Assembly: GCA_030669695.1 (NCBI GenBank)
Contig: DAOVDC010000029.1
Location: forward strand, 1-8,137
Reading direction: 5' to 3'
From: Candidatus Bathyarchaeota archaeon
GTDB taxonomy: Archaea; Thermoproteota; Bathyarchaeia; Bathyarchaeales; Bathyarchaeaceae
DNA length: 8,137 bases
A model generated the notes under the pieces. It was not told where the DNA came from and searched no databases. It saw nothing but the letters and a program-made list of their open reading frames with translations. The position numbers were made by a program, and so were the translations under genes. Shown piece by piece: positions 3,276 to 7,149 of the stretch (positions are counted from its first letter, which is position 1; each line of letters opens with the position of its first letter).

Positions 3276-3821
3276 TTATGCTTCTACTTCTACAGCTACA
3301 CCTTGCTTAATTAGGATTCGAGCGTTTTCAGAAGGCAGAGTTGCTATATTCTCTTGTTTGAACGGCCCATATGTCTTCATATCAGCCCCAATTATAGCTG
3401 GAATTTCTTGAAGAAAGCGAACCAACTTCTTTTTTGGCTTCTCCTTTCTTTTCACATGTGACAGGCGCCCTCTGAGAATTTCTTTCACCACCGCTTGATA
3501 AGACTCGGCTAGGGGCGAAATTTCTTCTATGAATTTTTCCTCTTCTTTGGTTAAACTTTCTCTGGGCACGATTTTTCCATTTATGGTTTTTCGGAAAGTC
3601 TTTCGGTAGCGAAGTTGAATTAATTCATCAATCATTTTTTGGACATTCGTAAACTCACGTTGCATGAGTCTGGCTTTTGTTGTTTTTTCATCCATCATTC
3701 GGCTTTCTTCTTTTATTTTTTTCATGTAGTCAGCTAGCTTCGCGTAAAAATCTCGAGGAAGCACCTGAATCTCAATGTTTTCTCTTTCTTTTTTCCATGC
3801 TTCATAGAGCTTGTCGTACAT
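3276..3821 (-). CDS. gins51: GINS complex subunit, Gins51 (Gins15) type
   Basis: A 181-residue archaeal GINS subunit, related to eukaryotic Sld5 and Psf1. GINS binds MCM and Cdc45/RecJ-type protein (GAN) to form the replicative helicase assembly and contacts primase and polymerase. An alpha-helical A-domain occupies about residues 1-122 (LPRDFYAKLADYMKK near the start, helices with MIDELIQLRYRK). A basic linker follows (KRKEKPKKK, 124-132), then the small beta-rich B-domain, 133-181, with VRFLQEIPAIIGADMKTYGPF. The A-then-B order is that of the Gins51 class rather than Gins23. The start ATG is two bases after the priS stop, with GGTGG seven bases upstream inside priS, so the two are translated together. 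This pairing with priS is common in archaea. Confidence 0.9.
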   Translation of the reverse strand: MYDKLYEAWKKERENIEIQVLPRDFYAKLADYMKKIKEESRMMDEKTTKARLMQREFTNVQKMIDELIQLRYRKTFRKTINGKIVPRESLTKEEEKFIEEISPLAESYQAVVKEILRGRLSHVKRKEKPKKKLVRFLQEIPAIIGADMKTYGPFKQENIATLPSENARILIKQGVAVEVEA

Positions 3822-3823
3822 GG

Positions 3824-5065
3824 TTATTCCACCATTTTCGCCCTTCCTTTACACAAGAGCAACAACGCGGCAGCTGTTGGCAGTTCAATCGTTTCTTCTT
3901 GATAGGGGCCATAAGTTTCGTCTCCTAATCTAAATTGAGGAGCATCTGCTGCCGTGACCGATACTGTGCCTTCTTTGAACGCAACGGCGCTTTTAAAGGG
4001 GTCGAAGTGTTCGATGCCGGTGATTGGGACCATAACTTTTCTCAAACCTGTTTTTCCATGTAACGTGTTACCGAGCCTTAGTAGTCGATGAATATCAGTT
4101 GTAACCACGGTGTCGATTTTTGCTGATTGTTTCTCTATCCCATGTTGAGCTATCTTTTTCCAGCTTTCAACGCCTACGTCTTTTATGATTCCCCAAGGTC
4201 CTTTTCCTTTCCAGCTTTCCAACAGCGTCTCTCTATGTTTAATCAGGGTATCGACGATCTTTTTTCTCAATCCTATTTGTTGTAGTTCTTCTGGAGTAGC
4301 TGACAGAAGGAACTCATAGGTTCCTTTAGCGATTCTTCCTCTCCATCCAGAATCATTCAAGTCTGGACCAGTCAGTATACGCGATTTATTTTCGCTTCTT
4401 TCACCTAAACCGTGGAACCGAGGTTCTAACCCTATCCCTATGACATAGTCTACTATTTCTTTGCGAGCCATTTGATCGAGTGCTTGAACTTCCTCGCTTT
4501 CCACACAAACATGATAACCACGATGCCCCGAAAAACTCACCTCCATTTCTTCTGGGGAAAAACCGAAATCCCTCATCAAAAAGTCTACAAGTTTTATCGT
4601 TTCCGTCTTTGCAGACCCTAAACAAACTTCACAAGGCCAAGTTTTTTCATCAAACTTCTGTTCTCCACAGGCAGGACACTTTCTAGGCGCCACACCTCGA
4701 CCAGCAACACCACAGTTCTTGCAGACCCATTTGTCGTGGTCTCTCTCGCAAGGAGTTGGAATATGATCCGCGTCGATGTCAAAAATTAAATCTGCCCCCA
4801 TCCAGCCTTTTTCTTCCATTTTCTCTTCGGGCCTTTCATAATAGGCACTTGAATAATAAACATCCGAGGGAACTATCATTTTCAGAAAAGACCCGAGGCC
4901 TTTCACGTTTTTGAAGCCTTTATGCCTGACCATAACTCTTTCCTTAAGTAAAATAAAACCGAATTCGCGTCTTTCGATAGTAGAGGGCGGTTGAATATCA
5001 GATGAATGCTTATGATAATATTCAGCGAATTTCTCTCGAACGAAACGTGGTAAAGAGAAAGGTAT
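3824..5065 (-). CDS. priS: DNA primase small (catalytic) subunit PriS, probable AUA start
   Basis: The catalytic subunit of archaeal/eukaryotic primase, which makes primers with PriL. If it starts at the ATA at 5065 it has 413 residues. Conserved sequence runs well upstream of the first ATG (codon 45): PRFVREKFAEYY (residues 6-17) and RREFGF (32-37), both family features. Other landmarks are VYYSSAYYE, the catalytic DxD in FDIDADH (D96, D98), SGHRGYH (179-185), the third catalytic Asp (D324 in TTDIHRLLR) and HGKTGL (336-341). A cysteine-rich insert (C106, C115, C118, C130, C133, C145, C148) is the zinc region. The last 36 residues resemble a GINS B-domain (TYGP at 384-387). An in-frame TAG at 5086-5084 limits extension. 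Between it and the conserved N-terminus there is no ATG, GTG or TTG. It lies two bases before the GINS gene. Confidence 0.93.
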   Translation of the reverse strand: MPFSLPRFVREKFAEYYHKHSSDIQPPSTIERREFGFILLKERVMVRHKGFKNVKGLGSFLKMIVPSDVYYSSAYYERPEEKMEEKGWMGADLIFDIDADHIPTPCERDHDKWVCKNCGVAGRGVAPRKCPACGEQKFDEKTWPCEVCLGSAKTETIKLVDFLMRDFGFSPEEMEVSFSGHRGYHVCVESEEVQALDQMARKEIVDYVIGIGLEPRFHGLGERSENKSRILTGPDLNDSGWRGRIAKGTYEFLLSATPEELQQIGLRKKIVDTLIKHRETLLESWKGKGPWGIIKDVGVESWKKIAQHGIEKQSAKIDTVVTTDIHRLLRLGNTLHGKTGLRKVMVPITGIEHFDPFKSAVAFKEGTVSVTAADAPQFRLGDETYGPYQEETIELPTAAALLLLCKGRAKMVE

Positions 5066-5254
5066 GCGTATTCCTCCCGAGAACTACATTACAGTTTGTT
5101 ATCAACCCATCCCTAGTACAACGATGGATAATTACGTTTCGACGAGTCCTTCTGTTCTAAACCCAAACCAAACTCCGAAATGGGCTTAATCACTGCTACA
5201 TTTGGAACACGTTTATGCCCAGCTTTTTAGTAGCAGTTGCCCTTGTAAAAGCGT
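5066..5254 (-). other. Spacer between priL and priS with interleaved inverted repeats
   Basis: This 189-bp stretch contains no recognisable gene. Read on the + strand it holds GGGCTTAA (5182-5189) paired with TTATGCCC (5213-5220; one mismatch), ACTGCTAC (5192-5199) paired perfectly with GTAGCAGT (5230-5237), and GCTTTT (5222-5227) paired with AAAAGC (5247-5252). The first two pairs interleave, so they form either a pseudoknot or alternative hairpins. At the priS end are an ATG-TAG (5089-5084) and the GGGAGG site. A weak AT-rich box (TAATTAT, 5128-5134 region) might be a promoter for priS. Confidence 0.4.
5073..5078 (-). promoter_or_regulatory. Strong ribosome binding site placing the priS start at ATA
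   Basis: GGGAGG on the minus strand, followed by the seven bases AATACGC and then ATA at 5065-5063. The spacing is ideal for initiation at this ATA. The nearer in-frame ATA (5071-5069) is only one base away and too close. Confidence 0.65.
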
Positions 5255-6319
5255 TTAGGCATGCAGTTTTTCCATCTTTTCCACTGGAGGCTTTCTTCGT
5301 ATAGTCCTTAATTTCCTTCGATAATAGGTTAGGGGATGCCGTATTCTTTTGCATATGGCATCCATGCTGTGACAGACTCCGTGGGTGCGTAGCGTGTCGC
5401 AGCGAGGGGGGATATATTTTGTTCGGGATCCTCTTCCGCCAGCTATGTGTTCAACTTGATATCGGGTTAGTCTTTCGTTGAAGTCGGAGACTGAGCTGAA
5501 GAGGTTGACAACGTCTTTTGTGGTCATGCCTATGTTTATTAGGAATGATGTTAAGGCGAAGCGGCCGATGTGGGAGACGTTACGACCGGACGCTATTGTG
5601 TCATATAGTTCCTTTATGCATGGTGGAAATGCGGTTACAATTACCTCTTTGGGAAGTTCCTCTAGTTGGATTTCTCCTCGTTTTTCTATGAACAGCTGTT
5701 TTAGTCGGTTTATGCGGTTCATCACCGCTTCAGGTAGTGATTCTATTTTTATGTCGAGTTTTACTTCTATGTGCTTTCGTACTTCTTCTTCTAAAAGGCG
5801 TGCTACTTCGCTTTGCATTAGGTAAACTTCTCCTTTTAGCATACGTCTGTTGATGAGTTTCCATTTTTTGTCGTGAAAAACTGTTGCACTTTTCAAAAAG
5901 TCTGTGTAATGGAGTGCAAAATCGTAGGTTAATGAAACAGCAGGGTCTTTGACAGGTTTTATCTTCCAGTTGAAGTTGTTTGCGATATATGTGATGTTGC
6001 TTTTGTTTTCGTTTCCAAGCATGTTAGAAACTCGTTTTGCTTCTGCTAGTGCGTATCTTCTTTTGATAAACGAATCAGCCGTTGCGGCTGCCATCATTAC
6101 GGCTATCGGAAAGGAGGAGATTTCGATGTCGTCGTTGGATGATTGTTCGGTTACTAAGCCCAAGAGAATGGCTTCTTCTATCCGTTTTTCAGCGCGGTCT
6201 AGTATGGATTTGTATTCTGGGCTTGTTAGGTCATTTATCTTGATGTCCAGTGTTTTTACGTATTTGGCTGCCTCTGGAACAAAAGGGTATTTGGCCCAGT
6301 CACTTTTTGTTAGTGGCAG
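5255..6319 (-). CDS. priL: DNA primase large subunit PriL, probable CUG start
   Basis: The regulatory, iron-sulfur subunit of the archaeal primase heterodimer; it stabilises PriS and assists primer initiation. Read from the CTG at 6319 it has 354 residues. The N-terminus is (M/L)PLTKSDWAKYPFVPEAAKYV, with the family motif YPF-PEAA at residues 11-18, so the first TTG (6163, codon 53) is certainly internal. In this frame a stop lies just inside the PCNA gene, and between it and the motif there is no ATG, GTG or TTG. The C-terminal domain shows the four cysteines for the [4Fe-4S] cluster: C234 (FPPC), C307 (PPRCDTL), C316 (HGVC) and C323 (ICKRIRHP, followed by LTYY). The last 25 residues are basic. 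The gene begins 22 bases after the PCNA stop, so the two are probably co-transcribed. Confidence 0.93.
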   Translation of the reverse strand: MPLTKSDWAKYPFVPEAAKYVKTLDIKINDLTSPEYKSILDRAEKRIEEAILLGLVTEQSSNDDIEISSFPIAVMMAAATADSFIKRRYALAEAKRVSNMLGNENKSNITYIANNFNWKIKPVKDPAVSLTYDFALHYTDFLKSATVFHDKKWKLINRRMLKGEVYLMQSEVARLLEEEVRKHIEVKLDIKIESLPEAVMNRINRLKQLFIEKRGEIQLEELPKEVIVTAFPPCIKELYDTIASGRNVSHIGRFALTSFLINIGMTTKDVVNLFSSVSDFNERLTRYQVEHIAGGRGSRTKYIPPRCDTLRTHGVCHSMDAICKRIRHPLTYYRRKLRTIRRKPPVEKMEKLHA

Positions 6320-6341: not shown

Positions 6342-7097
6342 TTACTCTACTTCTATGCGGGGAGCCAAAAAGAATGATAATTTTCCTTCTTTTTGCTGTT
6401 TAAAATCTAGTTTCACGGGCATGTCTGAGGAGAATTCTAGCGTGACGATATCTGACGTTGCCGCTGCGGCTTTAACGATTTCGGAAAGGTAGCTTAGACT
6501 GAAGGTAGCTTTCGAGTTCTCCTTTGTTTCTAGGTCGAGGAGTGCGTCACTTCCTTTCTTCATCTCTATTGTGGCGCCCATGAGGTCTCCTGTTGCATTC
6601 ATTACCAGTTTTTCGTTGTCCGCCTCGATTCGAACGTGGTCGCTTACGAGAACAGCGTCTTCGATTGCTTCACGCAGTCCTTCAGTGGTGGTCTTAGCCT
6701 TTACGTTGAAGGCAACTTTTGGGGTAGGAACCTCTTCTTCTACCGCTTCCAACGTGGGCATATTGAACGCGCGCATGTATTTTCCTCTGATAGTTATTTG
6801 CAGTCGCCCCGTCTTTTCATCCAATGAAAGCTCGACGGATTCGTCTTTTCCCGCCCGTCTGAGCAGTTTTAGCAGCTCGCTCACGTTTATGCACAGTTTC
6901 ATAGTCTCGCTGGCTGTGTATTCGTCGAAGACTGTTTTTGGCCATTCGAAGTCTATCATAGCTACGCGTGATGGATCCATTGCACGGAGTTTGATTGCGT
7001 CTGGGGTTATGTCAAATGTTGCCTCGTCGATGAGTGTTGAAATTGTGGCGATCATATCTTTCAAGAATTTTGCGTCGGCCATTTTAACCTTGAACAA
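6342..7097 (-). CDS. pcn: DNA polymerase sliding clamp PCNA, probable UUG start
   Basis: The ring-shaped processivity factor that tethers DNA polymerases, FEN1, ligase and other PIP-box proteins to DNA. Starting at the TTG at 7097 it has 251 residues, the normal archaeal length, and begins MFKVKMADAKFLKD as family members do. Landmarks are LRAMDPSRVAMIDFEW (residues 37-52), the interdomain connecting loop around EEEVPTP (119-125) and the C-terminal APRIEVE. The frame also contains an ATG at 7139. That would add 14 residues (MAERLRVSVKGGLS) partly encoded by the Shine-Dalgarno AGGAGG at 7110-7105, and it has no binding site of its own. The TTG with a seven-base spacer is therefore preferred. 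Downstream, priL follows after 22 bases. Only one PCNA gene is visible; whether the ring is a homotrimer cannot be told here. Confidence 0.96.
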   Translation of the reverse strand: MFKVKMADAKFLKDMIATISTLIDEATFDITPDAIKLRAMDPSRVAMIDFEWPKTVFDEYTASETMKLCINVSELLKLLRRAGKDESVELSLDEKTGRLQITIRGKYMRAFNMPTLEAVEEEVPTPKVAFNVKAKTTTEGLREAIEDAVLVSDHVRIEADNEKLVMNATGDLMGATIEMKKGSDALLDLETKENSKATFSLSYLSEIVKAAAATSDIVTLEFSSDMPVKLDFKQQKEGKLSFFLAPRIEVE

Positions 7098-7104
7098 TGA
7101 TAAT

Positions 7105-7110
7105 CCTCCT
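7105..7110 (-). promoter_or_regulatory. Ribosome binding site placing the PCNA start at TTG
   Basis: AGGAGG on the minus strand, followed by ATTATCA (seven bases) and TTG at 7097. It lies inside the reading frame of the longer ATG-started version and argues against that start. Confidence 0.75.
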
Positions 7111-7137
7111 TTAACGCTTACTCTTAATCTTTCAGCC

Positions 7138-7149
7138 ATTTTAATCTTT
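7138..7149 (-). promoter_or_regulatory. Candidate TATA box for PCNA-priL
   Basis: On the minus strand AAAGATTAAAAT (7149-7138) looks like a TFB-site purine run plus a TATA-like ATTAAAAT. The expected start of transcription, about 25 bases on, is near 7116, just before the AGGAGG. If right, the ATG at 7139 is not in the mRNA. The match is imperfect. Confidence 0.35.

Follow-up and report, generated by a model that had tools for sequence, protein, structure and literature searches.

A probable AUA start codon for the archaeal primase gene priS and possible relaxed start-codon choice in a Bathyarchaeia lineage

In an 8,137-nucleotide stretch of a Candidatus Bathyarchaeota contig (DAOVDC010000029.1; hereafter the window), priS, the gene for the catalytic subunit of DNA primase, is probably translated from an AUA codon at 5065-5063 on the minus strand. 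At the level of the letters, the locus combines the lack of a canonical start, conserved coding, and a conserved Shine-Dalgarno (SD)-like site with ATA, and similar cases occur elsewhere; the use of AUA, the insertion of methionine and a low output are what we infer. The nearest relatives are G001 (locus L001), a Bathyarchaeota metagenome-assembled genome (MAG) with 96-97% identity to the window, and G002 (locus L082), with 95% identity over the 4.2 kb compared; G003 is 76% identical. The features of the window are the following.

3276..3821, minus strand: gins51, a neighbouring gene with an ATG start (open reading frame and profile match)
3824..5065, minus strand: priS, DNA primase catalytic subunit, 413 aa plus stop (TIGR00335 match)
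4934..5065, minus strand: 44 conserved N-terminal PriS codons missed by gene callers (alignment of relatives, mismatch pattern, 1zt2_A)
5063..5065, minus strand: ATA, proposed start codon of priS (family start column; 7 nt after GGGAGG)
5069..5071, minus strand: a second in-frame ATA (1 nt after GGAGG; the matching codon is ATG in G003)
5073..5078, minus strand: GGGAGG, SD-like site of priS (GGGAGG in G001 and G002, GGAGG in G003, with equal spacing to ATA)
5079..5080, minus strand: a 1-nt length difference that opens or closes the frame to TTG (TC in the window, CC in G002, one base fewer in G001)
5103..5105, minus strand: TTG used for protein P0001 (shares the PriS frame in G001 but not in the window)
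5113..5143, minus strand: leader element GTCGAAACGTAATTATCCATCGTTGTACTAG, almost unchanged in G001, G002 and G003, possibly a promoter
5255..6319, minus strand: priL, DNA primase regulatory subunit (PF04104, 121.2 bits versus 22.4)
6317..6319, minus strand: CTG, proposed start codon of priL, with a weak SD (CTG at the equivalent place in G001-G004)
6342..7139, minus strand: pcna, a neighbouring gene with an ATG start (open reading frame and profile match)

Translated from ATA, the product scored 181.5 bits against TIGR00335 (cut-off 143.5), which identifies it as an archaeal PriS; its scores against the longer models NF001641 and NF001639 fell below their cut-offs. The translation contains FDIDAD, which we take to be the catalytic motif of PriS, and this motif was aligned in the profile comparison. 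Read along the minus strand, the order is TAG (5086-5084) TTC TCG GGA GGA ATA CGC ATA (5065-5063) CCT TTC. No ATG, GTG or TTG occurs in the PriS frame across the 51 codons from this TAG to the ATG at 4933-4931, which is the first canonical codon of the frame (codon 45, with 44 codons preceding it). A preliminary description of the window had already reported a TAG-closed frame devoid of ATG, GTG and TTG, together with a GGGAGG at 5078-5073 standing 7 nt before the ATA, and both the coordinates and the letters bear this out. The 3' end of the 16S rRNA was not found in G003, whose sequence includes 9,800 N.

The same description held that conserved sequence continues above the first ATG and that gene callers would lose 44 residues, and both points stand. 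Codons 1-44 align with those of PriS relatives, and the solved PriS 1zt2_A is aligned from profile position 6. Their mismatches at codon positions 1/2/3 number 0/2/7 against G001, 0/1/8 against G002 and 8/7/18 against G003, a coding-type pattern in which these codons look coding. Gene callers commonly assume ATG, GTG or TTG, and the proteins P0002 and P0003 (96 and 94% identical) are annotated with 369 aa from the internal methionine. Translation from the canonical Met45, the codon picked in these two annotations, would yield a PriS without its first 44 residues; this reading is highly improbable, given that the codons it discards change like coding DNA and show conservation both across relatives and, beginning at profile position 6, with solved PriS.

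Comparison of the start column among relatives argues further for AUA. The string GGGAGG-AATACGC-ATA is identical in the window, G001 and G002, and G003 also has ATA at the priS start column. A read or assembly error is an unlikely source of the ATA, since two further assemblies, divergent by ~4-5%, carry it, as does G003, and since G002 also has the leader length of the window. Variation between ATG and ATA at this position, proposed earlier as a check, is present: across 22 usable loci, which include near-identical genomes or second copies, the column holds ATG in 10, GTG in 1 and ATA in 3, and in 8 a canonical codon adjoins the column on one side or the other, so that a canonical codon stands at or one codon beside the column in 19/22. 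The count started from 26 loci besides the window, four of which were unusable (L085 with Ns; L089, L104 and L105 without the PriS N-terminus); the weak short matches L107-L110 were left out, and L081 coincides with L001. G003 appears less clear as an ATA-start case than G001 and G002: an ATG, 1 nt after GGAGG, lies 6 nt before its ATA, and another lies 27 nt before it. The start column, the SD spacing and the ATA of G001, G002 and G003 thus support the AUA start that had been suggested from the window alone. They also bear on the other ATA, at 5071-5069. A start there would find a parallel in G003, where the corresponding codon is ATG; it is nevertheless very unlikely, as only 1 nt separates this codon from GGAGG, which leaves too little room for SD pairing, and as the starts of the relatives fall on 5065 or no more than one codon away.

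The TAG-closed leader is not a fixed feature. G001 lacks one base just before GGGAGG, so that its frame is open across a TTG that lies 39 nt ahead of the ATA, while the window and G002 have a common leader length that puts TAG in frame; upstream of the ATA, the frame is open for 90 nt in G001 and 93 nt in G003. The block at 5143-5113, read in the TTG frame, gives RNVIIH[RH]CTR in the window, G001, G002 and G003, and third positions account for 5 of its 8 variable columns (P 0.09). This is a weak hint that the block might be coding, in which case PriS would have a longer N-terminus; a promoter element appears as likely. The alternative that follows, namely that translation of PriS begins ahead of the ATA, from the TTG or a more distant codon, and that the window and G002 carry a natural, programmed or assembly-error frameshift, is unlikely. 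It draws on the open frame of G001 and on P0001, the representative of a 52-sequence cluster, which is annotated with 426 aa from the TTG 13 codons upstream of the ATA, as well as on the open frame of G003 and the lean of the shared variable columns to third positions. We discount the coding reading of the block because no in-frame ATG, GTG or TTG precedes it in G001 or G003, so that the block would itself need an unusual start; because G003 does not preserve the 13 residues from TTG to ATA, which separate the block from the ATA; and because a single base breaks the frame in both the window and G002. Moreover, the letters before the TTG (..GAGATGGG, ..GGGATGGG) contain no GGAGG, P0002 and P0003 are annotated from Met45, and among 30 aligned proteins only P0001 and P0005 reach at least 10 residues beyond the AUA N-terminus. 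The shared block slightly lowers our confidence in the AUA start.

In the window, an ATG (5089-5087) stands directly in frame before the TAG at 5086. Reading this TAG through as pyrrolysine from that ATG is barely credible: pyrrolysyl-tRNA synthetase scored over the cut-off in none of the four genomes of the genus (1 of 14 in a control set), and the ATG-TAG frame is not kept in G001. As a start-stop, ATG-TAG (5089-5084 in the window) is found in the priS leaders of G001 and G002 as well, and it also precedes priL in G010 and G012-G014 (L124-L127). A search of viral contigs for the leader pattern of the window returned no matches.

The AUA codon of priS has a counterpart in priL. The ORF tool begins the PriL of the window at a TTG at 6163; the conserved N-terminus (..PLTKSDWAKYPF) reaches the CTG at 6319-6317, and no ATG, GTG or TTG occurs between the upstream stop and the end of the conserved KYPF (region 6346-6301, minus strand). 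PriL matches were obtained in 24 of the 27 genomes of the family of G001, and the 28 matches, with two fragments left out, gave 26 loci. In 14 of these, as in the window, no canonical codon lies between the upstream stop and the conserved KY. Six other loci have a canonical codon inside the motif only (G004, G023, G005, G015 and single copies in G020 and G021). A further five carry theirs 30-45 nt upstream (G006, G008, G016 and the second copies of G020 and G021), and the start column of G025 holds GTG. In G001-G004 it holds CTG, before which a scan of the window and of G001-G003 showed a weak SD or none. Outside the genus, GTA, GTT or TTA occupies the column in 15 of 22 loci, and in 13 of these it follows a GGAGG-type site by 7-8 nt.

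A test of 80 named loci for a canonical codon before a conserved anchor, with 9 PriL and 5 PCNA sequences left out as truncated, found it lacking in 9 of 44 usable PriL and 1 of 34 PCNA sequences. It was lacking in none for TFS (0/22), Gins51 (0/79), L44e (0/42), S27e (0/42), aIF2 alpha (0/41), PAC2 (0/32) and PriS (0/80), a canonical in-frame codon being present somewhere in all 80 PriS loci, at L001 through the TTG only. At locus L065, PCNA has no canonical codon before its conserved start. The primase genes lie on one strand with those for TFS, PCNA, GINS, L44e, S27e and aIF2 alpha.

Further genes of the lineage appear to begin at non-canonical codons, and the case of L7Ae looks the strongest. 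The SD stretch GGGGTGAAGGATC is present in G001-G004 and is followed by ACG in G001, G002 and G003 and by ATG in G004. Of 23 L7Ae loci examined (L259-L281), one consisted of Ns, and the start codon in the 22 usable loci is ATG in 18, TTG in 1 and ACG in 3 (L259, L260, L261); in G002, an ATG occurs at codon 7. MCM has CTG in G003 where G001 has TTG; CTG stands in 3 of 26 rows, and two of these, G020 and G021, outside the genus, have TTG five codons on. Rrp4 has ATA after GAGGTGA in G003 and TTG in G001. For a PIN-domain protein, CTG is found in both G001 and G003, with a TTG ~10 codons later in G003. A ThiF-family protein has ATA in G001, and a protein without a Pfam match has ACG in G003 and ATG in G001. 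Among 22 L24e loci, CTG occurs in G003, with ATG 15 nt before it, and in G004, with GTG just before it. With PriS included and swaps with a nearby canonical codon left out of the count, the non-canonical start cases comprise eight genes over G001 and G003, five or six in each genome, or ~1% of the compared genes. The earlier expectation that starts of the AUA type are very rare therefore seems not to hold in this lineage, where PriL and several conserved genes lack a canonical start.

Some names and candidates were dropped. Csl4 was rejected as a name because the protein is Rrp4 by profile check, Nob1 because the NCBIfam models scored below cut-off (the protein is the PIN-domain protein), and metallo-beta-lactamase because no Pfam match was found. 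Frames at G003 minus 55266 (OST3/OST6-like), G003 minus 97404 (helix-turn-helix) and G001 C12 minus 65598 were set aside as ambiguous or possible frameshifts, and three short frames were set aside for their resemblance to shadow ORFs.

A genome-wide survey compared one genome pair, namely the complete chromosome of G003 with 839 kb of G001. Stop-to-stop frames were paired with a third-position filter against shadow ORFs, which gave 450 genes on the G001 side and 451 on the G003 side. At least 10 aligned codons precede the first canonical codon in 45/450 and 49/451 genes, mostly without a coding-like appearance; 17 frames, 8 from G001 and 9 from G003, were judged by eye. The aligned near-start columns backed by an SD-like site in each genome comprise 193 that are canonical on both sides and 54 that are canonical on one side only. 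At these 54 SD-backed swaps, ACG (8/54 versus 9/552 internal, P 3e-5) and ATA (9/54 versus 34/552, P 0.009) are enriched, as are ATA, ACG and CTG taken together (23/54 versus 130/552, P 0.005); no enrichment was found for CTG by itself (6/54 versus 87/552, P 0.43). Not all near-start swaps are non-canonical starts, since many have another canonical codon within a few codons. Across 438 G001/G003 pairs, 261 have a common canonical column with an SD and 89 a common canonical column without one. In 7 of the 438, a canonical codon in one genome has none within 7 codons in the other, and two of these seven look internal.

The initiator tRNA has an ordinary CAU anticodon loop, judged by eye, in both G001 and G003, which argues against an altered initiator. 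This tRNA apparently carries one intron near position 4 and another in the anticodon loop (G003 C1 ~667,350; G001 C4 ~15,335), and the former would account for its poorly pairing 5' end. In G003, ARAGORN misnames this tRNA and listed no CAT tRNA, the latter probably because of the introns.

Start-codon fidelity is thought to be a common function of archaeal aIF1 and eukaryotic eIF1. Our search recovered aIF1 from 23 of 27 genomes. Its loop 1 reads E[FY]RKW in G001-G004 (L307-L310), with T replaced by F or Y, and ETRK in 18 of 19 others. The sole departure among those 19 is the aIF1 of G024 (L311), with a strongly divergent loop 1, LAMGKWRRKNT. As outlined in PMC6237735, aIF1 destabilises the initiation complex, favouring proofreading, and loop 1 takes part in 30S and 30S:mRNA binding; that the changed loop 1 of the genus would be a cause of relaxed starts is a guess from coincidence. 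Non-canonical PriL codons occur also in genomes with ETRK-type aIF1, which counts against the link to loop 1.

For the AUA start of priS, we propose that the GGGAGG of the leader would pair with the 3' end of 16S rRNA and thereby position AUA at the P site. The ordinary initiator tRNA, with its CAU anticodon, would there pair with two of the three bases, leaving a third-position mismatch, and insert methionine. The preliminary description likewise suggested that an AUA start could hold the catalytic subunit at a low level or place it under the control of initiation factors. The priS codon would then be one case of relaxed start choice in the genus, with AUA, ACG or CUG where relatives have AUG, UUG or GUG; taken by itself, we consider such relaxed start-codon choice in the lineage an evenly balanced proposition. 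In the bacterial macromolecular synthesis operon, primase output is low. Here, the weak starts would probably also keep both primase subunits scarce beside PCNA, L44e, S27e and aIF2 alpha, which are expected to be strongly expressed, and the position of primase among TFS, PCNA, GINS, L44e, S27e and aIF2 alpha makes a weak start a plausible means to this end; as a separate claim, an output valve for primase is tentative and on balance doubtful. The trait would not be a low-output device only, as L7Ae, which is expected to be abundant, appears to start at ACG. With slightly less than even confidence, we hypothesize that relaxed starts are lineage-wide, with AUA, ACG or CUG in essential replication and ribosome genes, amounting to at least ~1% of genes, and GUA, GUU or UUA for the PriL of the family, perhaps through loop 1 of aIF1, and that the codons of the primase subunits form a conserved output valve.

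Starts of this kind have bacterial precedents. AUU starts with a strong SD are described for infC and pcnB of E. coli (PMC4245954), and in S. aureus AUA starts are described for infC, ccpN and citZ and an AUU start for cvfC1, where the cvfC1, ccpN and citZ starts give ~10% of AUG output in poor medium, with ccpN reaching up to 30% in rich medium (PMC13009471). Like these genes, as they are presented there, priS combines a probable near-cognate start with an SD at ordinary spacing, and some of the bacterial cases are likewise conserved in relatives. It differs in belonging to an archaeon, in that its product is a primase and neither an initiation factor nor a regulator of metabolism, and in apparently sharing the trait with several essential genes of one lineage. 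The GUC start recorded in Halobacterium salinarum is similarly archaeal and non-canonical, but it lies on a leaderless mRNA, whereas priS has a leader with an SD (PMC4574771). As in the bacterial macromolecular synthesis operon with dnaG (PMC2824700), primase is placed among genes of macromolecular machinery; here, the primase belongs to a different family and the start codon would be the means. No report of non-canonical starts in Bathyarchaeia or in an archaeal primase was found among titles and abstract openings, with subscription papers and preprints mostly outside the search. SD-backed AUA starts in bacteria and the GUC start of Halobacterium (PMC4574771) are thus already on record, and what is unusual here is the number of essential genes with non-canonical starts in one archaeal lineage.

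If essential genes start at AUA, ACG or CUG in a large uncultured group, the N-termini held in databases would be wrong, as is seen for PriS. It would further mean that start-codon fidelity can drift in nature, and a natural lineage of relaxed fidelity would make the link between loop 1 of aIF1 and start choice testable.
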